IMG/VR virus record: IMGVR_UViG_3300030329_001268
Location: 1-55,698 of that record
DNA length: 55,698 nucleotides
Source: a virus
Reading direction: 5' to 3' (one strand)
Within the stretch, counting starts at the first letter, position 1; the number at the start of each line of letters is the position of its first letter. This document shows positions 10,832 to 47,390 of the stretch, piece after piece. Under the pieces are notes generated by a model, which was not told the DNA's origin, did no database searches, and saw only the letters and a program-made list of their open reading frames with translations. The position numbers and the translations under genes are program-made.

Positions 10832-12472
10832 TTAATATCCAAAATCGGGATCGATTGGTTTATAGTTTGAATTTCTTTTTAGTTCTCTTATGCGCTGTAG
10901 AGGATCATTAATACGAGGTCTACTCATAATAAGATAGCGTAATGCATCATACGCATGATCGGATGCATTAGTGTCGACATCTTCAGGATTTGTTTTACTT
11001 AATGGTATACCTTGTAGTTCTCGAATCAAGTTAGGACAAGTGTTAAAAATTTGTAGTTTAGGTCGGCTCCCACTATTCTGAACTCTTAGATATTCGTGTA
11101 CCTGAATTTTGCCTTGTATTCTATTTTTATCGGCTCTTCTGAGTTTATGTCCTAGCTGCTGTAAAGTCTCACCAACAGTAGGACCAGTTGTTCCAGTTCT
11201 AGCCCAAGCTGCTGTATCTAATACACCTTGGACAGAAAAAGGATCTTCTATCTCCATTTCAGTTATTATACGACCTAAATCAAGACCTGTCAAGTTTTTT
11301 CTATAGAGTTCTCTGTAAATTATTAAAGTTCCATCACTTCTATCTACTGCTCCCCACAAACAACAACTCTCTGAAGAGTACCCATAGTCAATCCCTTTTA
11401 CTCGTTCCCAAACTATAGGAAGAGTAAAAGGTTCTATAACATGTATGCTAGGATCAAACTCAACAAAAGCAGCACCTTCTGCTACATCCCAATTACCTTC
11501 TAACAATTGTTTTCTTTGAATTGGAGGCAAGGCATTAAGCATTTCTTCATACCTGCCATCTTTTGCTAAGTAAGGATTATCGTCTAATTTAGCAGGAATA
11601 AATTTTCTTGTTAAGCCATCTTTTCCTTTAAAAGATTTATTATGTTCTGATGGTTCGATGTATCTTTTCTTTACCCAATGCGCACCCACACCTCCTGGGT
11701 TTGCTGTGCATCTAAGATAAGTTTCTATTTCAGGATCAGTCGTTCTAAGTCTTGAAGCAAGATAATTCCAACCAAACTCAGTAGGTAAATGTGTTATCTC
11801 ATCAAATCCAATCCAACTATATGCTTGTCCTTGGTATCTGTATACGTCTGCATCTCTTTCCAAGAAACCAAATTCTATTTTTGCTCCGCTTGGAAAGTTC
11901 CAAAGTTTTTCTACTTCACGAAACTTACAGCCAGGGAAAGCCAAAGGATATAACTCACGAGACTTATCAATTAGTTCTCTAAGTTCAGGCATAGATCTAC
12001 GAAGTATCAATGCTCTGTGTGCTTTTTTGTGAGCGTATCTTAGTGGATCAACTAACATCGCATAAGACTTGCCCCCTCCTGCTGCGCCTCCATAAAGAAC
12101 ATCTCTTTCAGGAGCAGCAAGAAAATCAGTTTGAGGACCTTCGTTAGCGTGAAAGACTACATTCTCAGTGGGCCTATCTTTTATTTCTTTTTGAACAGAA
12201 GGAGTAAGTTCTTTTATATCTGTATCTAAAACAACTTTATCTGCATTTGCGTTATCTAATTTATTTAAAACTTTCTTTTGTTTTTTTAGTTTTGCTTTAT
12301 GTGCAGATATTTGATTTTTTAATTTGTTTATTTTTTGTTCTTTCTTTTTAACAGATTTCCTAGCACTCATTTTTGCTTTAGTTTTAGAGTGATAGTTATA
12401 AGTACTTTTAGAACCTTTAGGTCTTCCTCGCTTTTTAGGCTTCTTGGTTTCGTCTTTCTTCTCTTGTACCAT
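10832..12472 (-). CDS. terL: Terminase large subunit
   Basis: The DNA-packaging motor ATPase and nuclease. A Lys-rich N-terminal extension (about residues 1-70, with RGRPKGSKSTYNYHSKTK and a coiled coil) precedes the ATPase. Walker A GGAAGGGKS lies near residue 129 and the Walker B-type segment WIGFDEITHL near 224. The RNase H-like nuclease begins at GIDYGYSSES near 363, followed by GVLDTAAW and a late DHAYDALRYLI. The lysine-rich extension is unusual and could bind DNA. The start overlaps the small upstream HTH gene by 38 bp. Confidence 0.93.
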   Translation of the reverse strand: MVQEKKDETKKPKKRGRPKGSKSTYNYHSKTKAKMSARKSVKKKEQKINKLKNQISAHKAKLKKQKKVLNKLDNANADKVVLDTDIKELTPSVQKEIKDRPTENVVFHANEGPQTDFLAAPERDVLYGGAAGGGKSYAMLVDPLRYAHKKAHRALILRRSMPELRELIDKSRELYPLAFPGCKFREVEKLWNFPSGAKIEFGFLERDADVYRYQGQAYSWIGFDEITHLPTEFGWNYLASRLRTTDPEIETYLRCTANPGGVGAHWVKKRYIEPSEHNKSFKGKDGLTRKFIPAKLDDNPYLAKDGRYEEMLNALPPIQRKQLLEGNWDVAEGAAFVEFDPSIHVIEPFTLPIVWERVKGIDYGYSSESCCLWGAVDRSDGTLIIYRELYRKNLTGLDLGRIITEMEIEDPFSVQGVLDTAAWARTGTTGPTVGETLQQLGHKLRRADKNRIQGKIQVHEYLRVQNSGSRPKLQIFNTCPNLIRELQGIPLSKTNPEDVDTNASDHAYDALRYLIMSRPRINDPLQRIRELKRNSNYKPIDPDFGY

Positions 12473-12716
12473 ATTTATTATCTATAATTTTTTTTAACCC
12501 TGCCGGGCTGATTCTTCTTCCTGTATGGTTTTCTAACCAATAACAGCCATCTCTTAGAGATATTTCTTCATTGACTACCATTTCTTCAACTGCTGTTAAT
12601 GCATCTAATTCTTTTTGAACAGGCTGCATATAACGTGAATCATCTTTAGATAACTTATATCCAAAAGGAACTGTAGAACTTGTTCTTCTTTTTAATTGAC
12701 TAAGTAAACTATCCAT
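12435..12716 (-). CDS. Small HTH protein resembling a serine-recombinase 'recombinase' domain
   Basis: A 93-aa protein. From VPFGYKLSKDDSRYMQPVQK through VNEEISLRDGCYWLENHTGR to ISPAGLKKII it follows the layout of the DNA-binding 'recombinase' domain of large serine recombinases: PYGY-type start, helical middle, then a final helix-turn-helix. There is no catalytic resolvase domain. It overlaps the terL start by 38 bp, so it is coupled to packaging genes. It may bind DNA at the packaging site or act as a second small packaging factor. The true small terminase candidate lies at 15041-15469. Confidence 0.5.
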   Translation of the reverse strand: MDSLLSQLKRRTSSTVPFGYKLSKDDSRYMQPVQKELDALTAVEEMVVNEEISLRDGCYWLENHTGRRISPAGLKKIIDNKYGTREERRNQEA

Positions 12717-12964
12717 CAGTGTTTTTTCTTCTTATTAATTTTTTGAACTTTATCGTCTGTAAATTCTACAACTCTATCAGGCTCTCCTTGCAGTTGTTCT
12801 AAATCAACAACCTTTCCTGATGAATCAAACTTGTAAGTCATATAATCACTATGTACTTCACCACGAATCCATAGTACAGGACACACTTTTAACCATTCAT
12901 AAAATATGTCAGGCATTTTATTTTCATCTCTAAACTGTTCTTCAAACGTATCACTTATAGCCAT
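12716..12964 (-). CDS. Hypothetical protein (82 aa)
   Basis: Stop and next start share base 12716, so the two genes are probably coupled. The protein is acidic with a Lys-rich tail (QKINKKKKH) and a central KVCPVLWIRGEVHSDYMTYK stretch of beta character. No family recognised. Position between the glycosyltransferase-like pair and the packaging genes gives no clear hint. Confidence 0.55.
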   Translation of the reverse strand: MAISDTFEEQFRDENKMPDIFYEWLKVCPVLWIRGEVHSDYMTYKFDSSGKVVDLEQLQGEPDRVVEFTDDKVQKINKKKKH

Positions 12965-12973
12965 TGGCTTCTC

Positions 12974-13702
12974 CTAAGATATATATTTAACATTATGCAG
13001 TCTGCGCCTCATTCTCGAAATTCTTTTCTTTGTCAAGTTTCCTAAGTGTTCTACTATTTCTTTTTCTTTTTTAGGTAGTCCTTCCGTATAAGGAAGAAGT
13101 TTGTCAAAACAATATGCATACGTTTCAACTACACTTGCTTTTTTATTATTTAATATGTCTATGTAATTATGTATAGAAGACTGTTCTCCTAGTACTCCAT
13201 ATGTCAAAGCGTCTGAAGCATTTATTGCGTCTTCTTTAAATATAGGATCATCTCTATGATTCATATATCTAGGCATAAAAAGTTTTTTAATATTTGGTAA
13301 TATGCCTTGGTCTTTAGCAGGAATCCGATGCCATTGTAAAGGGTTCATTATAAATAGTGAAAGATCAATCATTCCTTTATGCATATCTTTATCAATAAGT
13401 TTATAGTGTCTTGCTATTGTCGGATGGTCTGCATACACTGCTTGTCTGCTTAGACACATATCATAATTTTTTAATTTTTCTTTTTTAGGAAGATCTCTAT
13501 CTTTTATATTTAATATTAAACCGCTTTTAACAACTAAAGTAATATCGTCTACATTATGCAAAGCAGATGCAATTTTACTTTTTCCACATGGAACAATCTT
13601 GTATTGAAACTCAGGCATATTCATTTCAATAGAGTTAACTGTTAAGGCTGTTAAGTTATTAACCTCTAGGATTAAGATCTTTTGGATTTTTTGGTTTGAC
13701 AT
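12974..13702 (-). CDS. Hypothetical protein, possibly GT-A glycosyltransferase-like
   Basis: A 242-aa protein. The N-terminal strand-loop pattern QKILILEVNNLTALTVNSIE, followed by DITLVVKSGLILNIKDRDLP, resembles the nucleotide-binding half of GT-A enzymes. A later LSLFIMNPLQWHRIP motif looks like an acceptor-side loop. No clear DxD is visible, so activity is uncertain. It overlaps the next upstream gene (13659-14558) by 44 bp, and the two probably work together. This pair sits oddly between the terminase subunits. Confidence 0.4.
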   Translation of the reverse strand: MSNQKIQKILILEVNNLTALTVNSIEMNMPEFQYKIVPCGKSKIASALHNVDDITLVVKSGLILNIKDRDLPKKEKLKNYDMCLSRQAVYADHPTIARHYKLIDKDMHKGMIDLSLFIMNPLQWHRIPAKDQGILPNIKKLFMPRYMNHRDDPIFKEDAINASDALTYGVLGEQSSIHNYIDILNNKKASVVETYAYCFDKLLPYTEGLPKKEKEIVEHLGNLTKKRISRMRRRLHNVKYIS

Positions 13703-14558
13703 GCTTTATGTCTTTAAAGTAATTAAAAAAGTTATCTATTCGTTCTTGTGGATTATGTACTAAATAAGAAACAAGACCTGAGTATTCTGAAGATAAAAGA
13801 CGTTTTAAATCTAAAGGGTTGGGTTTATTATTAATATCTCCTCTCCACAATGCAGTATATATAGGGGTATATGTTCTAGGACTGCAACCTCTTTTATCAA
13901 ACAATCTTACTTCACTTCCTTGTGATAAACCTATTAATCCCATTTCAGAATTAGTACAACATCCTACGATCTCTGCTTGTTTTAATATTGAGTGGCCCGA
14001 TAGTTTTTTATTTATTATTCTATCTTTAAACTTTTTCTTTAAGTCGGCAAATACATAGGCAGAAGTAAGAGGATGACATTTAAGGTATGCGCCTTTTTCT
14101 ACTTCTTCTTGTACTTTCTTTGTATCTACTATATCATATAATATATTTGTACCAGGAAGAAAGATTACATATTTAGGTTTAAATTTTGTTCTTCGTAGTT
14201 TATATTTGTCTAGGCTTTTAATTGCTAGTTCTTTAAAAAGCATGTCTCCTTCTTCTGTCACTACTTCTTTTGCTGACTTTATCATTACTTCACAAGCATA
14301 ATGAAACGAAGCAGGTTTCATATAAATAAACTTAGACATAGCATCTGTATAAACATAGCCATGTATTCTAGGATCATCGGGAAAATCGTACCAAATATCG
14401 TACTCAAGGTTAGTATTGTAGTTTCCTTTTTTAGGAAGAAGTTTGTGTACTTTGTTTAATTTTTCATTTTCATCGTTTCTAAGAACGCTACCCGATTTAA
14501 AGAAATGAGCAGTCTTATTATTTAAAACATCATTGTAGGCTAAAGTTTCAATCGCCAT
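13659..14558 (-). CDS. GT-B-like protein related to capsule polysaccharide synthases
   Basis: A 299-aa protein. The second half contains KYVIFLPGTNILYDIV, AYLKCHPLTSAYVFADLKKK, KQAEIVGCCTNSEMGLIGLS and QGSEVRLFDKRG. This is the order seen in KpsC/KpsS and CDP-glycerophosphotransferase-like GT-B enzymes: an HP-type turn, then a Ser/Gly loop that binds the nucleotide, then a 'gk.v' strand. The substrate cannot be told. It overlaps the 51-aa gene upstream by 11 bp and the next gene by 44 bp. Possible roles are glycosylation of virion or host surface; both are inference. Confidence 0.5.
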   Translation of the reverse strand: MAIETLAYNDVLNNKTAHFFKSGSVLRNDENEKLNKVHKLLPKKGNYNTNLEYDIWYDFPDDPRIHGYVYTDAMSKFIYMKPASFHYACEVMIKSAKEVVTEEGDMLFKELAIKSLDKYKLRRTKFKPKYVIFLPGTNILYDIVDTKKVQEEVEKGAYLKCHPLTSAYVFADLKKKFKDRIINKKLSGHSILKQAEIVGCCTNSEMGLIGLSQGSEVRLFDKRGCSPRTYTPIYTALWRGDINNKPNPLDLKRLLSSEYSGLVSYLVHNPQERIDNFFNYFKDIKHVKPKNPKDLNPRG

Positions 14559-33714: not shown

Positions 33715-34094
33715 TTTGCTAGTGGATTATCACTCTTAATTTTTTCTTCAAGATTATCTAACTCTGATTTTAAAACTGCAATGTCTCCTCGCAGTCCTGA
33801 AACATCTATAGTTTCATGTGTGTGAGTTTTTAATACTGCAACATCTTGTTCAATTGTTCCTATATCAGGAATATCTAAAGCCTTTAATTGCTCATCAATG
33901 GCTACCATTCTTTTGTCTAATTCTGCCATTCTGTCTGCCATTCCATCTACAGCAGTTATGTAATCATTCGTTGCACTTTCTATATTATCGATCCTGTTAA
34001 TTGTTTGAGCGCCTTCATAGCCGAAACCTGCTAATGTTCCTGCTACTGTAACTCCTGCAATTATTTGTCCAAGTCTATTATTTAACCATTCCAT
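33711..34094 (-). CDS. Membrane-anchored coiled-coil protein, end of the late operon
   Basis: A 127-aa protein with one N-terminal hydrophobic stretch (IIAGVTVAGTLAGFGYEG) followed by long coiled coils (MADRMAELDKRMVAIDEQLK; LRGDIAVLKSELDNLEEKIK). The layout resembles inner-membrane spanin subunits or holin-associated proteins, but it lacks a family signature. It is convergent with the GT29 gene, with overlapping stops and no space for a terminator. It overlaps the next upstream gene by 17 bp. Confidence 0.55.
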   Translation of the reverse strand: MEWLNNRLGQIIAGVTVAGTLAGFGYEGAQTINRIDNIESATNDYITAVDGMADRMAELDKRMVAIDEQLKALDIPDIGTIEQDVAVLKTHTHETIDVSGLRGDIAVLKSELDNLEEKIKSDNPLAN

Positions 34095-36339
34095 GATTTC
34101 CTCCGTCTAAGTTTGGTTGTAAGTTTCTCATTTGTGTTAATGTGTTTATTGATGCAGAAGCCAAGCCATAAAAACCTACAGTATTGTCAGGTAAAACTGC
34201 ATTAGCATACATTGTTTTTGGCTCATACCATGTAGGCTGTGGAGGCATTGACGCATTTCTATACGCATCAAAACCTTCCACATAGCCCATGTATGCAATC
34301 AATTGAGAAGAGTCTGCATACTCTCCTGTTTCTGATTGTTGCTCCTCCATTTCCTGTTGCTGTTGTTTTATATTTTGAGCAACAGTTGTAACCTCTTGTT
34401 TAGATTCTACTGTTGTAGTTGTTTCTCCCATATCTGTATTGGTTGCAACAGTTGTTTCTATTGTAGCAGTAGTTGTAGAAGTACCTGCTACTGTTGTTGT
34501 TTCTGTATTTGTTTCTGTGGCTGTATTTTCATTGGTTGTTTCTGTTGTGCTTGTTGTAGTGGCAACGGAAGCACTTGAAAAATTCTGACTACTTGTTCCT
34601 GTATTTATGTTTGAAGACATTGTAAGTACTTGCTGTGTCTGTGCAGCAGAGGCGCTGATCTGTGCTGATATTGAAGGGGAACTTGAAAAACTTACAGATC
34701 CTCCTGTTGATGAAGCAACTGTAGCCTGTGTACTTGCAGTATTAGATGTTCCTCCTGATGCCACTGTATTACCAGTAGAATGAACAGAATTACCTGCGGT
34801 TGTTCCGCTCATACTATTTACAGCTGCCAGTACTGTTCCTTTTACAACTTGTAATTGTTTTTCTAATTTATTTTCTTTTTCAGTTTCTTCTTCTATTTCT
34901 TCTTCAATAATTTCTTCTATATCTTCTTCTCTTTCTTCTTCTAATTCTTCTTCAGGTTCTTCTTCTGACATTTCTTCTTCAAACCATTCATCTAATTCTT
35001 CAATACTTTCAAATTCTAAAACTTCTTCTATCTGTTCTTCGCTTATCTCTTCCATTATAAGCATTCTTTCGGCTTCTTGAATTAAAGGCTCATTTACTTG
35101 TACTAAATAATCTACGTCATATTCTTCAAAGTCTGTCAAGAACTCTACAAATTCTTCTTCTGTTATTGGAAGTTCTTCTATAATTTCAGGAAGTTCTTCT
35201 TCTATAATGTATACTAAGTCATCAAAAGGAAGATGTTCTTCAGGCGGATCTAACCATATAAGTTCTTCAGGAATATCATCTATGACTATAGGAAGAAAAG
35301 GATCATCTACATGTTCTTGTGAATAAAACTCTTCGTAGTATTCTTCTACATAAAATTCTTCAGAAAAATATTCAGAAGGATCTTCATAATAATATTCTTC
35401 TTCTATGTAGCCATAGTCATATTCTTCTTCAGCATATCCATAATCAAATTCTTCTTGTTGTACAAAGTAAGCAACAGATTGTTGAGTTGTATAGCCTGGA
35501 CAAAAAGGTGCGTACTGAGGATCAAGATCACATTGCTGATCATCATATGCTTCCCAATATCCTGTACATAGATTACTGTATAAAGGATTTAATGTGCATT
35601 GCTGAACTAAATAAGCCGCTTCATAACCTGCACATTCAGTACTGCTTAAAGGATTAACAGAACAAGCATCATTGTATGTAAGAGATTTGTTTTCTAATAG
35701 AGTATTAAAACTACTATTGTTCCAGTCTTGGTTAACACACGTACTTAAATTTGTTGTGCCTGTATTACATTCATCAAAGAATAAATACTGTTTATAATTG
35801 TTAGAATCTCCTTGTATTCCTATAACAACATCGTGGGTTTTTATATCTAATGCACCATATCTAAATTCTATTTTAGAATTTTGCTCATATAAAAACATTT
35901 CAAAAGTGTTATCAGAATTGCTTCTATTATATTCTCTTAAATCATACCATCCTACTACAAAATAATCTTCAAAAGACTTGGAAAGTATTTTAGATTGGTT
36001 ATCTCTTATAAGATCAGTCCAAAAAGGATAGATGGTATAATTCGTGTCAGGTAAGGGATCAGGAGTATAGTCATTGCAATACGCTGTGGTGAAAGAAAAA
36101 CAACCATTAGTTGATATATATCCTTTGTCATATGTTTGATCAAAAAATTCAAAATCAAATCCTATGTCGACCAAGCCTGATCGACCATCATCACTTATAT
36201 TATATTGAGTTGTACCTGTTTGATTTCTCAGGTCGAGAATACTGGCTGTTCCTGTAGTCCAATCAGTTGCACTTAAATTAAAAGATAATAAAAGAGTTCC
36301 TAATAGTAGACTAAGTTTGGTTTTTAAATTCTCTAACAC
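34078..36339 (-). CDS. Secreted NIDO-like protein with Cys repeats and acidic low-complexity region (753 aa)
   Basis: Starts at GTG 36339 behind AAGG. A signal peptide is clear (KTKLSLLLGTLLLSFNLSAT). Residues about 25-200 look like a nidogen-type (NIDO) beta domain: DDGRSGLVDIGFDFEFFDQT, YISTNGCFSF, PFWTDLI, FEMFLYEQNSKIEFRYG. About 225-290 is three repeats of C-x-LNP-x5-C-x-GY-x-x-AY type. A Glu/Tyr-rich acidic region follows to about 490, then Thr/Ser-rich linkers and a short ordered C-terminus. It would be exported from the host cell or displayed at its envelope. Function unknown; superinfection blocking or lysis help are possibilities. Confidence 0.7.
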   Translation of the reverse strand: MLENLKTKLSLLLGTLLLSFNLSATDWTTGTASILDLRNQTGTTQYNISDDGRSGLVDIGFDFEFFDQTYDKGYISTNGCFSFTTAYCNDYTPDPLPDTNYTIYPFWTDLIRDNQSKILSKSFEDYFVVGWYDLREYNRSNSDNTFEMFLYEQNSKIEFRYGALDIKTHDVVIGIQGDSNNYKQYLFFDECNTGTTNLSTCVNQDWNNSSFNTLLENKSLTYNDACSVNPLSSTECAGYEAAYLVQQCTLNPLYSNLCTGYWEAYDDQQCDLDPQYAPFCPGYTTQQSVAYFVQQEEFDYGYAEEEYDYGYIEEEYYYEDPSEYFSEEFYVEEYYEEFYSQEHVDDPFLPIVIDDIPEELIWLDPPEEHLPFDDLVYIIEEELPEIIEELPITEEEFVEFLTDFEEYDVDYLVQVNEPLIQEAERMLIMEEISEEQIEEVLEFESIEELDEWFEEEMSEEEPEEELEEEREEDIEEIIEEEIEEETEKENKLEKQLQVVKGTVLAAVNSMSGTTAGNSVHSTGNTVASGGTSNTASTQATVASSTGGSVSFSSSPSISAQISASAAQTQQVLTMSSNINTGTSSQNFSSASVATTTSTTETTNENTATETNTETTTVAGTSTTTATIETTVATNTDMGETTTTVESKQEVTTVAQNIKQQQQEMEEQQSETGEYADSSQLIAYMGYVEGFDAYRNASMPPQPTWYEPKTMYANAVLPDNTVGFYGLASASINTLTQMRNLQPNLDGGNHGMVK

Positions 36340-37480
36340 ACGTTAGCCTTGATTTTTTTACCTTAGTTTTTTCGGCTCTGCATCTTTTAACATATCTGTC
36401 TTTAGCCTCTTGGTAGTCAGGTCTATCTTCAGGGTTCTGTCTCCATGCAGTTTTTGCTTCTTCCCCTATCTTACCTTCGTAAGGGCATGGAGTACCTGCC
36501 ATATGCATTGCTTTAAAAACTCTAGGATCCTGGCACAATACTCCAACTGCCGCTATTTTCATACCAGTATCATAAAGATATTTAGAAAGTTTTAAACGTT
36601 CACAATTCTCATCTCTTACTGCTTTACCGCCTGAAAGACCAAACACTTGTCCTTGAAACGCACCACTTACACCTGTAGTACAAAGGTCTTGGCTGTAACT
36701 CATAATAGAAGGAGCAATCGCAGAAGCAGGTGGCGCTTTTTGCGTGATATTCTGATTGATAGTCTGTTCAGACTTGCTCTCATTTATGTTCCGATTGGTG
36801 TTGTCAGAAGTACTAGTATTGACGTTATTATTATTGTTTGTATTTTCCGAAGTAACGTTTGACTCGGATGTATTTTTATTTATATTTGTATTTTGATTCG
36901 TGTTGTTGCTAGTACTAGTATTGACGTTATTATTATTGTTTGTATTATTTGATGTTGTATTATTATTGTTTGTGTTAGTCGAATTTACTGTACTAGATAC
37001 AGTTGAATTAGTTGTATTATTATTGGTATTAACACTAGTAGATGAACTAACGTTGTTATTGTTGTTTGTGTTGGTCTGCGTACCAGTTGTCGTAACAGTG
37101 TTGACATTGTTATTATTGTTTGTATTTGTTGCTGTTGAATTGTTAGTGTTTACGTTAGTTGCTGTTGACGTGCTTGTATTTACATTTGTCGTTGAACTAG
37201 TGTTATTATTAGTATTGACATTTGTGTTACTGTTTGTTGCTGTCGTTGTTGTTGTGTTGACATTTGTATTACTATTGGTGTTAACATTTGTATTACTGTT
37301 GGTGTTAACATTTGTATTACTGTTTGTTGTAGTTGTAGTATTTGTTGTATTTAATGAGTTAGCCTCACAATATTCTGTACCTGCTGTACATGTTCCTGTT
37401 TGAGTATCTGCCTTTACAGGAGTACCCAAGAAAAGAGCAGAGAGAAACAATGCTCCTAATAAAATTTTTTGTTTCATCAT
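36311..37480 (-). CDS. Secreted Asn/Thr-repeat protein with conserved C-terminal domain (389 aa)
   Basis: The start is ATG 37480 (or 37477) just after AGGAGGG; an in-frame TTG at 37498 would put that site inside the gene. The signal peptide is MMKQKILLGALFLSALFLGT, cut near VKADTQT. Residues about 45-240 are built of NTNVNTNS-like repeats. The C-terminal ~140 residues form a real domain: APSIMSYSQDLCTTGVSGAF, GKAVRDENCERLKLSKYLYD, GVLCQDPRVFKAM and paired Cys. It is probably exported, with the repeat as a flexible spacer. It overlaps the next gene by 29 bp and may be its partner. Confidence 0.72.
   Translation of the reverse strand: MMKQKILLGALFLSALFLGTPVKADTQTGTCTAGTEYCEANSLNTTNTTTTTNSNTNVNTNSNTNVNTNSNTNVNTTTTTATNSNTNVNTNNNTSSTTNVNTSTSTATNVNTNNSTATNTNNNNNVNTVTTTGTQTNTNNNNNVSSSTSVNTNNNTTNSTVSSTVNSTNTNNNNTTSNNTNNNNNVNTSTSNNTNQNTNINKNTSESNVTSENTNNNNNVNTSTSDNTNRNINESKSEQTINQNITQKAPPASAIAPSIMSYSQDLCTTGVSGAFQGQVFGLSGGKAVRDENCERLKLSKYLYDTGMKIAAVGVLCQDPRVFKAMHMAGTPCPYEGKIGEEAKTAWRQNPEDRPDYQEAKDRYVKRCRAEKTKVKKSRLTCVREFKNQT
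37247..37335 (-). repeat. 24-bp tandem repeat in the secreted protein gene
   Basis: The unit encodes NSNTNVNT and has about three near-identical copies (ACATTTGTATTACTGTTGGT-like on the plus strand). Different, less regular Asn/Thr repeats cover most of 36840-37240. Copy number is likely to vary between strains. Confidence 0.6.
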
Positions 37481-37506
37481 CTGCCCTCCTCTAAGCAAAG
37501 TTGAAA

Positions 37507-37667: not shown

Positions 37668-38126
37668 CTATTTAATTTTAATTTTGATTGGTTTCTTTTC
37701 TTCAGGAATTTCTTTTTTAAGAAAGATATTTAACATTCCGTCTTTAAAGTTAGCACCTTCAACTACTATATCTTCTGATAAAGTAAATTGTCTTTTAAAA
37801 GAACGTTGTGCTATGCCTTTATGCAGTATCTTATTCTCTTCAATAACATCATTAACAATCTCTTTTGAAGAATCATAAGAAATTGTTAGCGTGTTTTCTT
37901 GGAGTTCTATATTAAGATCTTTCTTTGCTATTCCTGCAAGAGCAATTTCAATTACGAAATTATCTCCGTCTTGTAGCACATTGTATGGCGGATAACTTGG
38001 CAAACTTTTAGAACCTTGAGACATCTGAGAGATGCTGTCAAAAAGATTGTCAAATCCTACAAACAATGATGAAAATATGGGATCTCTAAAATCTACCATA
38101 CCATAAAAGTCATTTTTTCTGACCAT
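37668..38126 (-). CDS. Small heat-shock protein (Hsp20/IbpA family)
   Basis: A 152-aa protein. The N-terminal MVDFRDPIFSSLFVGFDNLF resembles IbpA. The alpha-crystallin domain runs from YNVLQDGDNFVIEIALAGIA, through KDLNIELQENTLTISYDS and GIAQRSFKRQFTLSEDI, to ANFKDGMLNIFLKKEIPEE. The C-terminal PIKIKIK is the IxI-type tail that helps oligomer assembly. It holds unfolding proteins in a refoldable state. Phage Hsp20s are known from marine cyanophages. It is one of few late genes with a long leader, which looks like a ROSE thermometer. Confidence 0.9.
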   Translation of the reverse strand: MVRKNDFYGMVDFRDPIFSSLFVGFDNLFDSISQMSQGSKSLPSYPPYNVLQDGDNFVIEIALAGIAKKDLNIELQENTLTISYDSSKEIVNDVIEENKILHKGIAQRSFKRQFTLSEDIVVEGANFKDGMLNIFLKKEIPEEKKPIKIKIK

Positions 38127-38248
38127 GATTTTCTCCTTATTATAAGCAAGATTAATATTAAAAATATACTCATTAAGAATATATTCAGTTAATGCCTCTC
38201 AGACCTCGTAATGAGCGTTCTAAGAGGACTTTATTAATTAGATAAAGA
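38127..38248 (-). promoter_or_regulatory. Candidate ROSE-like RNA thermometer in the hsp20 leader
   Basis: Next to the start codon, CUUGCUUA pairs with UAAGGAG (38150-38133) around a UAA loop, with one bulged G. This hides the ribosome site AGGAG and reproduces the ROSE signature in which UUGCU faces the Shine-Dalgarno with a bulged G. Upstream is a strong 9-bp hairpin (38227-38195: CCTCTTAGA with TCTGAGAGG). Weaker A/T stems lie between. ROSE elements control small heat-shock genes of proteobacteria. Temperature control here is inferred. Confidence 0.6.
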
Positions 38249-39197: not shown

Positions 39198-42100
39198 CTA
39201 GGCTGTCAATCTTTTTTGAATTTTATTTCTAAGTGTGTGTCCGCCTAAATATTTTTGTCTTCTTTGTTGTAGAATATTTACAAAGCCTCCTTGATTCCAT
39301 TTAAACACAGTGCCTGTTCCTTTTTCTTCTACGTTTTTAACTGCTGTATCAGTAAATTCGATAGTAAAATAACCCTCATCAGGCTGATAAAACTCTGGGT
39401 TAAATAATTCATCTTCTGGATCAAAATGTTTTCTTGTTACATTTGCACCCATTCTGTTTGCAATTTTTCTAGCAATCCTTGGAATTTTTACATCATATAA
39501 TAAGCCTTGAAATTTTCCATCCCCATAAACTCTTTTTTCTTTCAAAGGCATTGAGTGATTTACATCAGGCTCTAACGATTTAATATGATTTAAAAAATCT
39601 TTCATTTCTTTAAATCCTAAGTCTTCTTGAATTTGAGAAAACAACTCAGCAGTTTTTCTTGTTAGATACCTTGATGAATTACCTTGTTCTTTAAACGCTT
39701 CTAAGGCATCTACTATTTCTATATAATCAAAAGCCTGTCCTGTAGATATTTTTTCAAGACTATTAGGAACATATGCTTCTCCTGTAACAGAATCTCTTGC
39801 CATTATAGTAAAATCTTTAGCAGAATAATTCTGTTCTACTAATGCTTTTTTTGCTTCAGGAGGTGTTCTTCTAATAATAAACTCGTCTGTCATAAAGTAA
39901 TCTTTACCCCACCTAGCAGCAATATTAGAGCCTCTATTAAATACTACATATTGTTGTCCCTCATTTAAAGCCATTTCTATTGCTGTTTGTATTCCTTTGG
40001 CTATCCATTCATCGTTTGAAAAAGGAAGATAAGCATATTTTGCACCTGCCGAATTATCTCCTTCAAGAATGTCTGTATATTGTAGTTGTTTCTGTACTAT
40101 TTTATTTGTCTTTGAAGATATTTTTTTCTTAAATCCACCTACAGTTTCTATGCCAAGACTTGTCAAGTTTTCTACAATATTATCAAATCTTCCTGACGCT
40201 CTTTTATGTGCATTCATTGGGCTAGATGTTTCATCTTTTATCCATTCTTCAAAAATTTCATCACCATCGTAATCAACAATTTCACCCGAACCCCTTTGTT
40301 CTGCTTCAAACCATCCATCTAAGTCTTCTCCCTTTATAGGCTTTGTCCATCTGTTGAGTTGATTCCATTCTTGTGCAGCAATTTCTTTAAGTGCTTTTTC
40401 TAAAGGCATAGAATCATTAATATTAAACGCATCAAGTAAAAAACCAAGCCTGTGATATTGGTTTATTTCAGGCATAAGTCTTTTAGCAAAAGTTTCGTCA
40501 TCTGATGTTATATATGGGCCAGTGGGATTCACTCCTGGTTTGACTCGCTCATTATAAACTAAACCATAACGTAAATATATATATTTTTCCCATTTTGACC
40601 AACCTGAATCTGACTCATGCATCCAAGGCGCTCTTGAAAAACTAGACCATTCTTCACTAACCTCTCCACCTATAGGCATGATTTCTTTTATGCCTTCCAT
40701 TACTTCTTTTTCTACAGTATCTAACTCTCTTATGTCTCGTTGTGTAAGAACTCCTACTGTCTCTGCCTTCTGCCAAAAATCACTTTGAAGTTCATCTACA
40801 AATTTAGCATGAGCCATTTCGTATTCCATGCCCTTTTGTCTTCCAGTTATTAAATATCTATCATTAGTTAGTATATGATATAAATAAGGACTGTCCTCTT
40901 GTAATATTTCAGTATAATGGTTAGGAGGAATCATTCCTTTTAAACTTTGAGGATTGTCTATAGTTACTATAGTTTCTGCATAATTTGATCCTCCTGGTGT
41001 CATCTCATTTTTATGAATTATTTCAAACCCTCCACTGCCTTGAAAACCATACTCTTCAGGATACCATTCTCGTACATATTGTCTTAGTTGTACTTCTGCC
41101 TCTTGAAGATTAACATCCTCTATATATTCTACAACAGCATTCCTAGATCCAAATTCAGCATACTCTTCAGGTCCTGAATAGCCAGTTTTATTTTCATCTA
41201 CTAGAGAAAAGCCTCTTTCTTGATTACCAAAAAGATAAACGTTGTCTAACGTTTTTTGTGCTTCTATTAAACTTTCTTCATGAGCAGCATCCATTGCATC
41301 TTGAGTATTCTGTAAATTATACCTATAGTTTGGATTTTGAGCATATCTAATTCTTGATATATTATCAATAACTAGTTCTCCATAAGGATCATTTATATCA
41401 TGCATGTAATCTTTATATACTTTTTCATAAAACTCTATTGGAATATCATCTATTTTAAATCCTGCTCCTTTTCCTCCAGGACTTCCTTGTAACAAATTAA
41501 AAATTTCACTTATTCCTTCCATAGATTCATTTAGCATTTCTTGTTGACCGCCCAACTGCATCATGGCTTCTTGATGATCACCGCTTTGGGCCGTTCCTCT
41601 GTTTAGAAGTTTAAGGTTTTCTTGAGAATCTGCTATTAATCTATCTATTGTTGCAGCCTTCGTCCCTATTTCGTCAATGTATTGTTCAGAATTAAATTCC
41701 TTTGGAAGGTTTATCTCTTGTATATATTCTAAAATACCTTTTTTATTTTTAACATAGAAAAGATCTATAAGAAAATTTTTGGAATCTAGGCTCAGATTAA
41801 AGTTTTCAGCGACCTCACCTTGTATTCCTTTTTTTACACCTGACCTTTCTACCCTCTCTCTAAGATTAATTACAGTATCTATTATATCTTCACTATCTAT
41901 TATACTATAATCTGTTCCATCAATAGGATCTACTATCTGTGGTCTTGTTGGACGTTGTGAAGGATCAAACCCTTCTACGTCAGCAAAGACAGGTTCTTCA
42001 AATGCCTTGGTTTCTTTAAGAGAAGTCATTTTTAATTGGGGTTGGTTTTCTTTAATCAAATCTAACATTTCATATTTATCCATGTTAGATACATCCGTTT

Positions 42101-45100
42101 CTTTATTATAAAATATATTATCTATCCATTCTTTTTCTGTTTTACTTACAGCCTGTTTTCTTTTAGGACTGTATACATAATCTATTAATGCTTGACCTTT
42201 TAAATTTTCAGGTGCGCCTTCTAAAGTAGTCGCTGCTTTCATAGTTAATCCTTCTATATGCTTTACTCTGTCGTCTTCAATAAAACCTTTTCTTTTTTCT
42301 GAAAGTATTCTTTTTGTTTCTAAATCACTTAGCGTACCGCCATGTATTTCATCCATATCCGCAGTATCTAAAAAGTCTGTTTCTTTCTGTCTTTTTAATA
42401 GGTTTTTTAATATAGGATTAACAACAACACCTGCTCCTGCAAAACCAAGCCTTTCCATTTCTTGTTCATAAGGCATTCCTGTATATTTATTAATCATTTC
42501 TGAAGGTTCTATTTTTACATTAGAAACAGGAAAAGTATCAGAGATTTTACCCCCTTCAAATTTTTTCAGCCTGTCACTTGCTTTTCCTCTTATGGCTCTC
42601 ATAGCCTTTTCCATATTTAAACTAGGCGCTCTTCCGTCATCTATTACAGGAAGTTTTCTAAATTGATCTTCATAAGCAACTAGTATTCTTAAAAATTGTT
42701 GAGGTGTTGTGTGTTCAAACTTTAATTCTTGTACAATTCTTTCTTTCATTTTATCTGAAATACCTAAAGGAACATACATATTACTATTTAAAGAAGCCCT
42801 TTCTTCTTCTGTTATTCTTCCTGTATCTTCCATATACATTTCTAAAATATCATTTACTTTACCAATAGGCATTCCTGATTTAAATTCATCTCTATATAAA
42901 TTTATAGCGCCTTGATGAGCCAAGGAAAGAGTCTGATAATTAAAGTAATTATTTTTTTCTGCTTTTAAATATGCTTCAAGAAACTTTAATTCAGTCGTAT
43001 CTTTATTAATATTCTTTCCTATTTGTCTTTTAAACTCTTTATTGTTTGATGTATATCTTGAAAGTTTTGACACCAAAGAATTTTCTACATATTGTGGAGT
43101 TACTTTCTTCCATCTCAAGCCTGTAAAGTTTGCTATGAGTTCTGCTGTAGGATCAAGTTCTTGCCCTGAAGCAAGTACAGGATCGTCTGAGAAAGATTTA
43201 AATAATTTATCTAATTGTGGTGCAGCGCCCGGAACAAAAGATTTCATAACATGATAAATAGCCATTTGACTATTGTTAATTGATTTTTCTGCTAAGTCTC
43301 CTCCTTCAGAACTATCCCAACCATCAATCTTATCTCCGTGTTCAGTACTTCCTGCCATTGCTTTTCTTACATCTGTAATGGCTTCTGTTAATAATGCTTC
43401 ACTTGCAAAAGGTTCTAAAAATCTACTTATTCCTTCATAGGCTGCATTACCTATTATCTCTTGCATTTCTTTTTCAGTTTTATTTCCGTCTGCAAGTTCC
43501 ATTGCAGCAACTCTTATTGGCTCTTTTATAGTATCATAAGGATCTACATAACTAAAATTATTAACATACAAAACACCTTCAGAATCTCTATAGTATAAAC
43601 GTTTTGTATATTTAGCATAGTCTGCTTCTAATAGATGTCTAATTGCATCGTCTGTGTTATCGTCTGTTCCTGACATCATTTGTGTAGCACCACCTAACAT
43701 TTCTGATCCCAGTCCTGCTGAAACAGTCATCCCTGCCATTCGTTGATAACCTCTTCGTCTTATTACAGGATTATCAGACATTATTTCTTTTGCCCCAATA
43801 TGTAGAGCATGATAACTAGTTCTTACCATTTCAGCAGGGAAAGAAAAGAAATTACCTAAAGGAAGTTTTCTTAGCCATTTAATTCCTGGAGGAACTAAGT
43901 CATAGTTAGGAATAGTCATTCTTACTTTAAATGCTGCTTCAGCGTCAATGGCTGCTTGACTATAATTAGGGCCATATGCTGATCTTAAAGTTTTAATTTC
44001 TTTTTCAAAAGCAGCAATTTTAAATAAGTCATCTTCTGCAATGTACAGTTTTTGTACTTGTTGAGGTATTTTAGAAAGTTTAGAATCTGTTAATCTGCTT
44101 GTTACTCCTTCAATACCAAACTGTTCAGCATCATTTATAAGCGCTCTATAGTCTCCAACTTTTGCACTTGTATTAACAATACCAAGACTATGGTATCTTT
44201 CATACCTAGCAATTTTTTCTGCATCATTTTCTTTTACTAGAAATTTAAAAGCGTCTACATTTTCTTCAGAAAAAGGATTCATTCCATTTGCTAACATAAA
44301 CATAGCACCGCCCATAGTATTTCTTAAATGAGTAATGTGATTAAACACTGTTTTAGAGGCTTGAGCATATCCTTTGCCTTGTAAATAATATCCGTAGGCT
44401 TTCATCATATTACTTTTCCAACGAGGCTGTTCTCTAAATATTCTATGTACACCTTTAGTAGTCCATTTTCCAGTCAATGCTCCCATTTTAGGATCAGTAA
44501 TTTGTTTCATTCCGGGCTGTCTTGTACTATGAAAATATATTCCTTTTCCTAATTCCCAAGCATTTGTCATAAACCTGTCTGTTTCTATAGCATCTGAAAG
44601 TTTTGTTAAAGATGTAAATACATTTCCTCTAACATCATCTGTTCTTCCAAGTAACTGTTGTACTTCTTTAGGAAAATCTTTTCTTGCTTTCATTGATCCT
44701 GTTAATCTTCCATGTATTTTTTCTACATATTGAAAAACATTTTCAGCTGCTTCTTTATCTCCTACAATGCCTTCAACTGTTGCTTTAGCATTTTTTGATA
44801 TAGCCTCATCTACAGGAGTACGCACTCCGTCTAATTCAATAACATTTTTACCTTGGTATTTTGTTATTTCAAATTTTTGACCATCAAGAGTTAAGAATCT
44901 TTTATTTAAATCTTTATCCACACTAATATTTTTTCTTATTTCTTTTTCAAAATAAGTTTGTGCTTCTAGTATGTGTTCTAAAGGAGGCTTATATCCTGTG
45001 CTGTATTTTAACCACGATCTTCTAAGGTACTTTCCTAAGTTGCTACCAATAACTTCTTTTACTTCATCAGGAACATACTCACTTTGCATATATAGTTTAC

Positions 45101-47390
45101 TTAACTCGTCTTGTTGATTACGAATTGCGAGTGCGTCTTTTTGTAAACTTTTAGGAAGATCTTTAAGTTCTACTTTATAAGGTGCAAAATCAGGATCTAA
45201 ATAATAATTTAATTGTGTAATTAATTCTTCTTTTCTTAGTTCTTTTCTTTTTGCCAAATCTCTCGAAATAAAATCAGGTTCTATTACATCTAAGTAAGGA
45301 GTTCCTATCCAAGGAGCATCATCTCCTTTCATTCTAGCAACTAAACTGTCAATACTTTTTTCAAGATTTACTACATGTCGTTCTGCGTTGCTTTGCCATG
45401 CTCTTTTTACTCTGTTAGTTTCTTGTATTAAGTCAAATAGTTTTGGAGTATAGTTTCCTCTTGACCTAAATATTTGTCCTCCTACCCATTGATAAGCATT
45501 TCTTTTCATTACATTATTCCAAGCACCCCAATCTTCTTTACCAAGACCTGCCATTTGCCAACCATGTCTTAACTCTTCAGGATCTTCAACAAACTTTTTA
45601 GGATCAGGCTTTCCTTTTTCTTTTTCTGCTCCAAACAAATCCATTTGTTTTTGTTCATCAGGAGTCTTTGCCAGTTGTTTTTCACCATACACAGTTTTAG
45701 CACTTACATGTGTGTTATATTCTGCAAGTAATTCAGGGTTTTCTTTTATTGATTCTCTGAAACCACGTAGTCTTTTCATTACTGCATCTTTTGCAGGTTT
45801 TAATCCTTTCTCCCATCCTGGCTGAATCGTTGTTTTATAAACTCCAAGTCCTAATAAATTTAATAAAGAACCTTCTACTAAGACACCTACTCTTGCTTCA
45901 AGTTGTGGCGAATCTTCTTGTGCAGCTAGGTATTGCATAAGATCATTTTTTTGTTCTTCGTCTGCGTATGCTCCTATCATATTAAATAGGCGGTCTTCTC
46001 TATATATATCCCAACCTGTTTGTTCTCCTAAAAGTGCAGCCACATTTCCTTTCATCCATTTATAAGCCCTTTTTCCTTTCTCTGACTTAATCATTTTTTT
46101 ACCTACATCAGGAAGAGCCTTGTACCATCCTGCTATATTTGCTGCAAGAGAAGATACATCAGAAATCATTTCTCCTCCCCAATAAGTAGGCTTTTTTAAT
46201 CTTAAAGAACGAATACCATCTCGCATATAAGTTTCTACATTTTCTTCACCAAACAAAACTTTTCCCATTTCAATATTCATATCACTAAATATTTGTTTAG
46301 GAAGATAATCGTCTACACCTTTTTTCCCTTTGCTTATTTGTTCTCTTATGTATGGTGATAACTCTTCATAATCTGAACTAGAAACCATCTCGCTATACAA
46401 ATCCATACTACTTGTACTTGGACCATCTCTCATAAGTCTATTGTTTGAGTTACCTGCTGTATTAAAAACATGATCACCAACTCTGCGAGGATTGTCAAGT
46501 TGTGAAATATCTTCTTCTGCATCGTATCTTCTAAAACTTGTTGCAGCAAGTAAGTCTTTTATTGATTCTTTATCGTAACCATTTTCTCTTAATGTCAGTT
46601 CTAATTGTCCTGTATTCATAGCAAGAGCAATAGCATCATATCCCATTTGTAATTGTTCTTCAGATATTTCTTCAAACACTCTGCCATCTTTTGTTACAGG
46701 AGAATATTGATCTTTACCAAGTAAAAGACCAATAAAAGTATCTTCTTTTTGATTAAAATTTTGACCTTTTTCGTCAAACAAATCATTTTGTACTATGCCT
46801 AAACGATTTAATACAGAAGAAGCAACCAAGGCTCGACCAATCTTTCCTTCTCCTTCTGCTTCAGCCACGACAAGACGAGCCAACATTTCTTCATCAGAAA
46901 TTTGCCTGTCGTCAAATACAATGGTTTTTTCTTTGGATAGGGCTACCTTAGGAATAAAGGTTCCATCTTTCTGTGATTTTGAAAGAAAAGGCGCTGTTGT
47001 ATAAGCAGAAGCAAGAACCATATAAGGATCTACAGTCTTCCAATTGGGAACAAACAAATCTATCATGCTGTTAGAAAAATTAGCGGCAGCAGGACCAAGT
47101 GTTCTTGCGGTATTATCCCAAAAACCTACTTTTTCTTTTTGAACTACACTTTCTTTAGGAGCAGAAAGTTCTATATCTTGTACCAACTCATTTACAAATT
47201 CTTCATCTTGAGATGAGGCAGTTTCTAAACCTAAAAATTTTTTGTAGCCATTTAAATCTCCATGTTCTTTATCTATATCATTTTTGTATTGAGAATAATA
47301 TTGATCTACAAGATCATGATCATTTATATCTTTAAGTTGAGGATACTTTTTTTTGTATTCTTGTATGTTTGTCAACAAAGAATCAGTCAT
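39198..47390 (-). CDS. Giant virion/ejection protein with SleB-like hydrolase and polyvalent-protein domains (2730 aa)
   Basis: The largest gene here. Around residues 160-320 is a SleB/Hydrolase_2-like wall hydrolase: SDEEMLARLVVAEAEGEGKI, GRALVASSVLNRLG, DQYSPVTKDGRVFEE. This is the usual position for a murein-degrading domain in ejection proteins, as in T7 gp16. The middle is long and helical. Near residue 2200 is KFVDELQSDFWQK and near 2477 is GIQTAIEMALNEGQQYVVFN. This pair recurs in large phage polyvalent proteins ('EIQSDW...' domain). It probably enters the host with the DNA and opens the cell wall. It is about twice the size of T7 gp16. The ribosome site is a weak AAAAGG. Confidence 0.75.
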   Translation of the reverse strand: MTDSLLTNIQEYKKKYPQLKDINDHDLVDQYYSQYKNDIDKEHGDLNGYKKFLGLETASSQDEEFVNELVQDIELSAPKESVVQKEKVGFWDNTARTLGPAAANFSNSMIDLFVPNWKTVDPYMVLASAYTTAPFLSKSQKDGTFIPKVALSKEKTIVFDDRQISDEEMLARLVVAEAEGEGKIGRALVASSVLNRLGIVQNDLFDEKGQNFNQKEDTFIGLLLGKDQYSPVTKDGRVFEEISEEQLQMGYDAIALAMNTGQLELTLRENGYDKESIKDLLAATSFRRYDAEEDISQLDNPRRVGDHVFNTAGNSNNRLMRDGPSTSSMDLYSEMVSSSDYEELSPYIREQISKGKKGVDDYLPKQIFSDMNIEMGKVLFGEENVETYMRDGIRSLRLKKPTYWGGEMISDVSSLAANIAGWYKALPDVGKKMIKSEKGKRAYKWMKGNVAALLGEQTGWDIYREDRLFNMIGAYADEEQKNDLMQYLAAQEDSPQLEARVGVLVEGSLLNLLGLGVYKTTIQPGWEKGLKPAKDAVMKRLRGFRESIKENPELLAEYNTHVSAKTVYGEKQLAKTPDEQKQMDLFGAEKEKGKPDPKKFVEDPEELRHGWQMAGLGKEDWGAWNNVMKRNAYQWVGGQIFRSRGNYTPKLFDLIQETNRVKRAWQSNAERHVVNLEKSIDSLVARMKGDDAPWIGTPYLDVIEPDFISRDLAKRKELRKEELITQLNYYLDPDFAPYKVELKDLPKSLQKDALAIRNQQDELSKLYMQSEYVPDEVKEVIGSNLGKYLRRSWLKYSTGYKPPLEHILEAQTYFEKEIRKNISVDKDLNKRFLTLDGQKFEITKYQGKNVIELDGVRTPVDEAISKNAKATVEGIVGDKEAAENVFQYVEKIHGRLTGSMKARKDFPKEVQQLLGRTDDVRGNVFTSLTKLSDAIETDRFMTNAWELGKGIYFHSTRQPGMKQITDPKMGALTGKWTTKGVHRIFREQPRWKSNMMKAYGYYLQGKGYAQASKTVFNHITHLRNTMGGAMFMLANGMNPFSEENVDAFKFLVKENDAEKIARYERYHSLGIVNTSAKVGDYRALINDAEQFGIEGVTSRLTDSKLSKIPQQVQKLYIAEDDLFKIAAFEKEIKTLRSAYGPNYSQAAIDAEAAFKVRMTIPNYDLVPPGIKWLRKLPLGNFFSFPAEMVRTSYHALHIGAKEIMSDNPVIRRRGYQRMAGMTVSAGLGSEMLGGATQMMSGTDDNTDDAIRHLLEADYAKYTKRLYYRDSEGVLYVNNFSYVDPYDTIKEPIRVAAMELADGNKTEKEMQEIIGNAAYEGISRFLEPFASEALLTEAITDVRKAMAGSTEHGDKIDGWDSSEGGDLAEKSINNSQMAIYHVMKSFVPGAAPQLDKLFKSFSDDPVLASGQELDPTAELIANFTGLRWKKVTPQYVENSLVSKLSRYTSNNKEFKRQIGKNINKDTTELKFLEAYLKAEKNNYFNYQTLSLAHQGAINLYRDEFKSGMPIGKVNDILEMYMEDTGRITEEERASLNSNMYVPLGISDKMKERIVQELKFEHTTPQQFLRILVAYEDQFRKLPVIDDGRAPSLNMEKAMRAIRGKASDRLKKFEGGKISDTFPVSNVKIEPSEMINKYTGMPYEQEMERLGFAGAGVVVNPILKNLLKRQKETDFLDTADMDEIHGGTLSDLETKRILSEKRKGFIEDDRVKHIEGLTMKAATTLEGAPENLKGQALIDYVYSPKRKQAVSKTEKEWIDNIFYNKETDVSNMDKYEMLDLIKENQPQLKMTSLKETKAFEEPVFADVEGFDPSQRPTRPQIVDPIDGTDYSIIDSEDIIDTVINLRERVERSGVKKGIQGEVAENFNLSLDSKNFLIDLFYVKNKKGILEYIQEINLPKEFNSEQYIDEIGTKAATIDRLIADSQENLKLLNRGTAQSGDHQEAMMQLGGQQEMLNESMEGISEIFNLLQGSPGGKGAGFKIDDIPIEFYEKVYKDYMHDINDPYGELVIDNISRIRYAQNPNYRYNLQNTQDAMDAAHEESLIEAQKTLDNVYLFGNQERGFSLVDENKTGYSGPEEYAEFGSRNAVVEYIEDVNLQEAEVQLRQYVREWYPEEYGFQGSGGFEIIHKNEMTPGGSNYAETIVTIDNPQSLKGMIPPNHYTEILQEDSPYLYHILTNDRYLITGRQKGMEYEMAHAKFVDELQSDFWQKAETVGVLTQRDIRELDTVEKEVMEGIKEIMPIGGEVSEEWSSFSRAPWMHESDSGWSKWEKYIYLRYGLVYNERVKPGVNPTGPYITSDDETFAKRLMPEINQYHRLGFLLDAFNINDSMPLEKALKEIAAQEWNQLNRWTKPIKGEDLDGWFEAEQRGSGEIVDYDGDEIFEEWIKDETSSPMNAHKRASGRFDNIVENLTSLGIETVGGFKKKISSKTNKIVQKQLQYTDILEGDNSAGAKYAYLPFSNDEWIAKGIQTAIEMALNEGQQYVVFNRGSNIAARWGKDYFMTDEFIIRRTPPEAKKALVEQNYSAKDFTIMARDSVTGEAYVPNSLEKISTGQAFDYIEIVDALEAFKEQGNSSRYLTRKTAELFSQIQEDLGFKEMKDFLNHIKSLEPDVNHSMPLKEKRVYGDGKFQGLLYDVKIPRIARKIANRMGANVTRKHFDPEDELFNPEFYQPDEGYFTIEFTDTAVKNVEEKGTGTVFKWNQGGFVNILQQRRQKYLGGHTLRNKIQKRLTA

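Follow-up and report, generated by a model that had tools for sequence, protein, structure and literature searches.

ROSE-like elements are recognised by a hallmark, U(U/C)GCU paired imperfectly with the Shine-Dalgarno (SD) sequence in a 3′ hairpin that follows one or more 5′ hairpins (PMC3669281). In the short element of Pseudomonas ibpA, hairpin II alone senses heat while hairpin I stays folded, and removal of the bulged-G defect locks the switch (PMC3669281). Among phages, only one RNA thermometer, that of lambda cIII, had been described before the one of SPbeta blyA (2023 paper, PMC10586365). The hsp20 gene is a core gene of T4-like cyanophages with a guessed role in capsid maturation (PMC3037559). 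Its control in these phages is not addressed in the open-access papers that we found, and two papers on cyanophage Hsp20 mention neither its leader nor a thermometer. In the open-access literature, we came across no description of a phage hsp20 with a ROSE element or any other thermometer. The element of the SAR11 hosts may have been noticed before, in a survey including strain HIMB5 that has an unnamed 'possible RNA thermometer', the gene not being named in its main text.

The window, that is, the whole stretch of 55,698 nucleotides analysed here, is the IMG/VR virus record IMGVR_UViG_3300030329_001268 (55.7 kb) of an ocean bacteriophage. It encodes portal/adaptor, terminase, primase-helicase, DNA polymerase and ribonucleotide reductase proteins, and its closest isolates by Hsp20 are the Pelagibacter phages HTVC103P, HTVC104P and HTVC115P. 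Its leader abuts hsp20, thus lying directly upstream of a small heat-shock gene as ROSE-like elements do, and the following features were located.

37668–38126, minus strand: hsp20, 152 aa, an IbpA-type small heat-shock protein (Pfam HSP20 4.5e-15; PHROG 432 Hsp20 4.3e-35).
38127–38248, minus strand: complete hsp20 leader, 122 nt, from the stop of the upstream ORF to the hsp20 start codon (from the sequence).
38133–38138, minus strand: Shine-Dalgarno AAGGAG, with the ATG 6 nt away (from the sequence).
38133–38150, minus strand: hairpin II, CUU[G]CUUA-UAA-UAAGGAG, SD-hiding, bulged G at 38147 (from the sequence, folding and a match to model R1, described below, that ends here).
38144–38150, minus strand: anti-SD CUUGCUU, including the ROSE hallmark UUGCU (from the sequence).
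38162–38186, minus strand: third hairpin, 10 bp, a subfamily-specific insert between hairpins I and II (from folding and relatives).
38195–38227, minus strand: hairpin I, a 9-bp stem and a bulged-G tip AC[G]CUC-AUUAC-GAGGU, bulged G at 38216 (from the sequence and folding).

Downstream of hsp20 (34078–37498, minus strand) lie two large low-complexity proteins without a Pfam match, one Asn/Thr-rich with a signal-like start (36311–37498, minus strand) and one Glu/Thr-rich (34078–36339, minus strand). The region 39198–47390 is one 2730-aa ORF, also without a Pfam match.

The preliminary description of this locus had proposed a pairing that hides the SD sequence, with a single bulged G, a three-base loop and a spacing of 6 nt to the start codon, and all of these could be read directly in the sequence. 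The pairs of hairpin II are C-G, U-A, U-G, then the bulged G38147, and C-G, U-A, U-A and A-U, with UAA as the loop. The four consecutive U paired with the SD sequence that characterise fourU elements are absent, as the anti-SD of the window is CUUGCUU. Two further stems upstream, one of 9 bp, had also been described, and these are hairpin I and the 10-bp hairpin; the bulged-G tip of hairpin I had been passed over. We observed that this tip is identical at 15 of 16 positions to hairpin I of another virus locus, L110. At the site of the third stem, a hairpin was present in all 11 insert-bearing sequences of the window's subfamily (z from −2.6 to −5.2), and L011 and L013 lack it. ROSE-like elements are defined by two to four hairpins, the 5′ ones being more stable, and we counted three in the window and two in most relatives. 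The 137-nt fold of the window had z = −2.2, which was equalled by 4 of 200 shuffles. Among the window's other genes, 35 have a ribosome site, and one of these shares the U(U/C)GCU..AGGA pattern; the local pattern alone is therefore only weakly unusual. The window by itself is insufficient as proof of an element; it is the comparative data that provide strong evidence.

When phage records were searched at the nucleotide level with the 1-kb window locus, there was no match, and the relatives were therefore gathered via protein. The comparison set consisted of isolate Hsp20 leaders and about 230 IMG/VR loci, which were collected via conserved Hsp20 peptides, a route that under-samples distant sHsps; start codons of the IMG/VR genes were assigned by a script. 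Of the phage hsp20 leaders of this set, 86 were non-redundant and had a ribosome site, and 81 of them contained the core U(U/C)GCU..AGGA, versus 9 of 282 control genes from the same loci. Four of these nine (L015, L023, L197 and L105) in fact represent elements of hsp20 or dnaK that were counted under another start, and the frequency of the core motif in other genes is about 2%. The motif stood just before the start in 207 of 219 distinct 60-nt phage leaders, and the leaders that have it span isolate Hsp20s down to 31–46% protein identity. We also searched all of IMG/VR for the exact 18-mer of the window hairpin II and obtained 38 occurrences, 36 of them directly before Hsp20; the other two were before HSP70/DnaK (L015) and in unrelated sequence (L010). 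The claim of a ROSE-type leader on a phage hsp20 is thus upheld, the U(U/C)GCU–SD hallmark being present in the window and kept in relatives. The leader is real and, far from being special to this phage, it is what marine phages generally have before hsp20.

A few loci of the set deserve separate mention. L015 (IMGVR_UViG_3300008012_006474) is a phage contig that encodes a full DnaK (11928–13873, minus strand; Pfam HSP70 1.7e-275), and it has a two-hairpin element before dnaK (R1 score 19.3 bits) and another before hsp20; a gene for a ClpS adaptor lies nearby. In L105 (1182–1454), the element precedes an ORF of 71 aa of no known family, inserted between the element and an hsp20 that has lost its own motif; it seems that the switch stayed in place as the leader of a newly formed unit of two genes. 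In L005 and L033 (IMGVR_UViG_3300002231_000115), the leader is intact and hsp20 is frameshifted after about 40 codons, by sequencing error or decay.

Next, we examined whether the structure, and not the motif alone, is conserved. A bulged-G hairpin I with a score of 14 or more was present in 91% of the phage leaders and in 7% of shuffled leaders; in nearly all leaders, this hairpin stands upstream of the SD hairpin with a single G bulged out of its 5′ arm ahead of C-C or C-U. For covariation, we discarded a MAFFT alignment of 51 mixed leaders, in which hairpins of unequal length were misaligned, and turned to hairpins of equal length. In 18 gaplessly aligned hairpins I, 96.8% of the cells were paired despite rewriting of the outer stem, with 31 double-change cells against 10.2 in shuffles (reached in 0 of 500) and a covariation of 0.711 versus 0.204. 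When the partner was slid by one column, pairing fell to 48–60%. The outermost pair of hairpin II alternates in step between C-G, U-G, A-U and G-C and is paired in 83 of 84 leaders, the best of 2000 shuffles giving 79. Compensatory changes among related phages, which the preliminary description had proposed to look for, are therefore present in hairpin I and in the outer pair of hairpin II. The structure is thus backed by covariation, as in ROSE-like elements, although weakly inside the window's own subfamily, where hairpin II is invariant and has no covariation of its own and the counts are weak as aligned.

The Rfam ROSE models had further been proposed as a test of the leader, and in this respect it failed: the window gave no match to a ROSE model, whether the scan applied the gathering score or admitted E-values as high as 10. 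None of the phage leaders tested reached the gathering score of ROSE, ROSE_2 or ROSE_3 (RF00435, RF01832 and RF02523). Sub-threshold matches to ROSE_3 were present in 15 of the tested phage records, the best being that of the Melnitz methylophage (34.1 of 43 bits, E 1.6e-6 per record); by coordinates, those of Melnitz, C48C1, S-8S53, L084, L110 and L113 lie on the hsp20 leader. For comparison, real Bradyrhizobium loci score 77–80 bits with RF00435 in the same kind of search. The SAR11 loci scanned (among L294–L371) gave no Rfam ROSE match.

We also built a covariance model, R1, from eight other marine phage leaders, leaving out the window subfamily. Its sole significant match in the window was at 38174–38133 (E 0.0012, R1 E-values being rough) and comes mainly from hairpin II, hairpin I being displaced by the inserted third hairpin. 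R1 matched 56 of 99 Pelagibacteraceae genomes, the best ten loci all lying before Hsp20. Over 249 Pseudomonadota, its best four matches were again all before Hsp20; Rfam itself assigns one of the four, a bacterial hsp20 leader, to ROSE_3 with 67 bits. Although R1 was built from viruses, it matches this locus, and a virus-only model therefore recovers a recognised bacterial ROSE element. Phylum-wide R1 matches above an E of about 0.005 were discarded as noise, as no recognisable hsp20 lies behind them. Judged from its sequence by the published hallmark, the window leader is a divergent, short ROSE-type element; it is outside the Rfam ROSE families by their cut-offs, and therefore we do not file it under them.

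These data also bear on the idea that the leader owes its resemblance to chance in AT-rich DNA. UUUGCU..AGGA does stand before one other window gene, with its start near 37460, but there it is not conserved (L003/L005), and we regard that copy as a chance occurrence. For the hsp20 leader, the motif counts given above, the covariation and the R1 match in the window refute chance, to which we attach practically no probability.

We then analysed what precedes the element. Of 84 phage leaders, 26 had TATAAATA upstream of the SD hairpin and 25 had TATAAT there, where shuffled leaders gave means of 0.6 and 5.6, respectively. The promoter-like boxes in the examples printed, and in many relatives, precede hairpin I, a position that would suit a leader that is part of the mRNA; the window leader (38127–38248) itself showed neither a clear promoter nor an intrinsic terminator. 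As the window and its close relatives have TATAAT in CTTGCTTATAATAAGGAG, the conserved block might instead be read as a promoter with TATAAT as its −10 box, the leader then being untranscribed. However, in other leaders the loop sequence from which TATAAT arises is free to change (UAUUU, UAACG, UUUUA and others) while the paired arms are kept, no promoter-like site was scored at the TATAAT position, and the boxes of other phages are upstream of hairpin I. We rejected TATAAT as a −10 box on the varying loop between constant arms, and a promoter at this block is very improbable.

In the SAR11 hosts, all 52 hsp20 leaders (Pelagibacteraceae loci L294–L371) have the U(U/C)GCU..SD hallmark. All 52 also have TTGAA boxes, followed in many by CCATA-like RpoH boxes. 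Three promoter-like types, namely T4-late-like, sigma70-like and, in SAR11, TTGAA..CCATA (RpoH-like), thus stand before one RNA, and the type differs among T4-like phages, podophages and SAR11 while the RNA is constant; these assignments are sequence matches and not mapped promoters. At the level of sequence comparison, the same RNA is found before hsp20 in cyanophages, pelagiphages and SAR11 hosts. The SAR11 proteins group as a single clade in the Hsp20 tree, nested among phage sequences, and the clade of the window is at another place among the phages. The tree and the shared leader together indicate that the bond between gene and leader is old, and that transfer may have gone in either direction. 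It had been suggested that the phage captured host control together with the gene. That the RNA is common to SAR11 hosts agrees with this, but the promoters differ and SAR11 Hsp20 is nested in a phage clade.

In our view, the leader very probably acts as a short and divergent translational switch of the ROSE type, which would be closed in the cold and melt on warming, with possible feedback by Hsp20. What the data show is the fold, how it is conserved and covaries, how closely it is tied to Hsp20 and that it is akin to bacterial ROSE elements; the response to temperature and the protein feedback are inferred. Hairpin I, joined by the third hairpin in the window's subfamily, precedes a marginally stable SD hairpin II. 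At low temperature, the ribosome site would be closed and Hsp20 made slowly; on warming, the bulged-G hairpin II would melt and translation would rise. This opening and closing of hairpin II is proposed by analogy with Pseudomonas ibpA. The predicted energy of the SD hairpin of the window is −5.3 kcal/mol at 5°C, −3.1 at 20°C and −0.9 at 37°C, and would be −4.4 kcal/mol at 37°C without the bulged G. Mean predicted SD accessibility was only modestly lower in phage leaders (0.37–0.43) than in control genes (0.48–0.56), and when whole leaders were folded across temperatures, it rose little with temperature in the phage leaders. Both results count against the switch, though the nearest-neighbour folding software ignores the non-canonical pairs of ROSE elements.

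The predicted opening, shallow in many leaders, would suit an RNA structure that is static and senses nothing, its role being to keep translation low or to shield the 5′ end of the mRNA, and transcripts are often stabilised by stable 5′ hairpins. However, a destabilising bulged G together with U(U/C)GCU is kept specifically before chaperone genes (Hsp20, once DnaK) in unrelated phages and bacteria, and the family that the leader resembles is experimentally thermoresponsive (PMC3669281). We consider a purely static role improbable.

A different emphasis is suggested by the protein. E. coli IbpA binds its own ROSE-bearing 5′UTR and represses the translation of its own mRNA. This self-repression depends on Arg93, a residue that chaperone activity can almost do without, and the aromatic Tyr34 and the basic residues 97/98 are also required (PMC10474464). 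The leader could accordingly be mainly a binding site for Hsp20 and a sensor of aggregation, temperature being incidental and the load of capsid folding in the infected cell, rather than heat, releasing translation. We observed that the phage Hsp20s have Arg93 in 75 of 78, an aromatic residue at 34 in 87 of 87 and R/K at 97 in 75 of 78. The window Hsp20 has the equivalents of Arg93 (Arg108), of the aromatic residue 34 (Tyr45) and of the basic residue 97. In the thermally stable ocean, moreover, the need of lytic phages for a heat sensor would not be obvious, and capsid protein is made in quantity. Residue 98, on the other hand, is basic in only 8 of 78 phage Hsp20s and not in the window, and Arg93 is general in alpha- and gamma-proteobacterial IbpAs, so that its conservation is not specific evidence. 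Self-repression is also compatible with thermosensing, as E. coli uses both. We hold it possible, though on balance doubtful, that protein binding is the main function; as a serious second input to the ROSE-type switch, Hsp20 feedback of the E. coli IbpA kind is plausible. Free Hsp20 oligomers may bind the leader and keep the ribosome site closed, and misfolded proteins (e.g. capsid) would titrate Hsp20 away and release it.

A wider proposal, which we put forward tentatively and with rather less than even confidence, is that of an undescribed ROSE-type branch on the core hsp20 of abundant ocean phages (T4-like cyanophages, pelagiphages, methylophages and the window's podophage group), and also on dnaK in one or more phage contigs. 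In phages it might act mainly as a sensor of proteostasis, Hsp20 shutting its own leader until titrated by the capsid-folding load, and the promoter would have changed while the RNA was kept. If the switch operates as proposed, it becomes testable whether lytic marine phages tune their chaperone supply to sea temperature, and whether marine phages use Hsp20 as their own folding-load sensor. The analysis further contributes a ROSE-type element that had no annotation in SAR11, together with a covariance model able to find it where Rfam fails to.

Among known systems, the phage element resembles the short ROSE-like elements of Pseudomonas ibpA (PMC3669281) and Rfam ROSE_3 (RF02523) in the two-hairpin 5′UTR of an IbpA-type sHsp gene, and in a hairpin II whose U(U/C)GCU pairs with the SD sequence while the start codon is left free. 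Hairpin I of ROSE_3 (..UGCC..GGG.. with an unpaired G) also has a likeness to that of the phages. Unlike these, the phage element occurs in viruses and SAR11, is AU-rich and scores below the Rfam cut-off; its promoter-like sequences in phages are T4-late-like or sigma70-like, and the window has the extra third hairpin. At 37°C, the SD hairpin of the window is also predicted to be weaker than that of the bacterial ROSE_3 locus L385 (−0.9 versus −2.6 kcal/mol). With the classical ROSE1 of Bradyrhizobium hspA (RF00435), which is likewise alphaproteobacterial, it shares the SD-hairpin hallmark and the sHsp gene; ROSE1 has three to four hairpins, whereas the phage element has mostly two, or three, and does not match RF00435. 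The gene family, the SD-hiding leader and the kept Arg93/Tyr34/Arg97 are shared with the E. coli ibpA thermosensor (PMC10474464), unlike which the basic residue 98 is not conserved in phage Hsp20 and feedback in the phage is proposed only. Like lambda cIII and SPbeta blyA (PMC10586365, PMC4166951), the window would have an RNA of a phage genome with temperature-dependent translational control. However, the cIII RNA has two conformers and takes up the closed one on heating, blyA has a fourU element on a lysis gene, and neither is of the ROSE type or on a chaperone gene. The Synechocystis hsp17 thermometer (PMC4166951) is similar in its sHsp gene and 5′UTR location, but it is a single short hairpin, whereas cyanophages have the two-hairpin proteobacterial type; a ROSE-like sequence in Anabaena indicates that cyanobacteria are not free of such sequences (PMC4166951).
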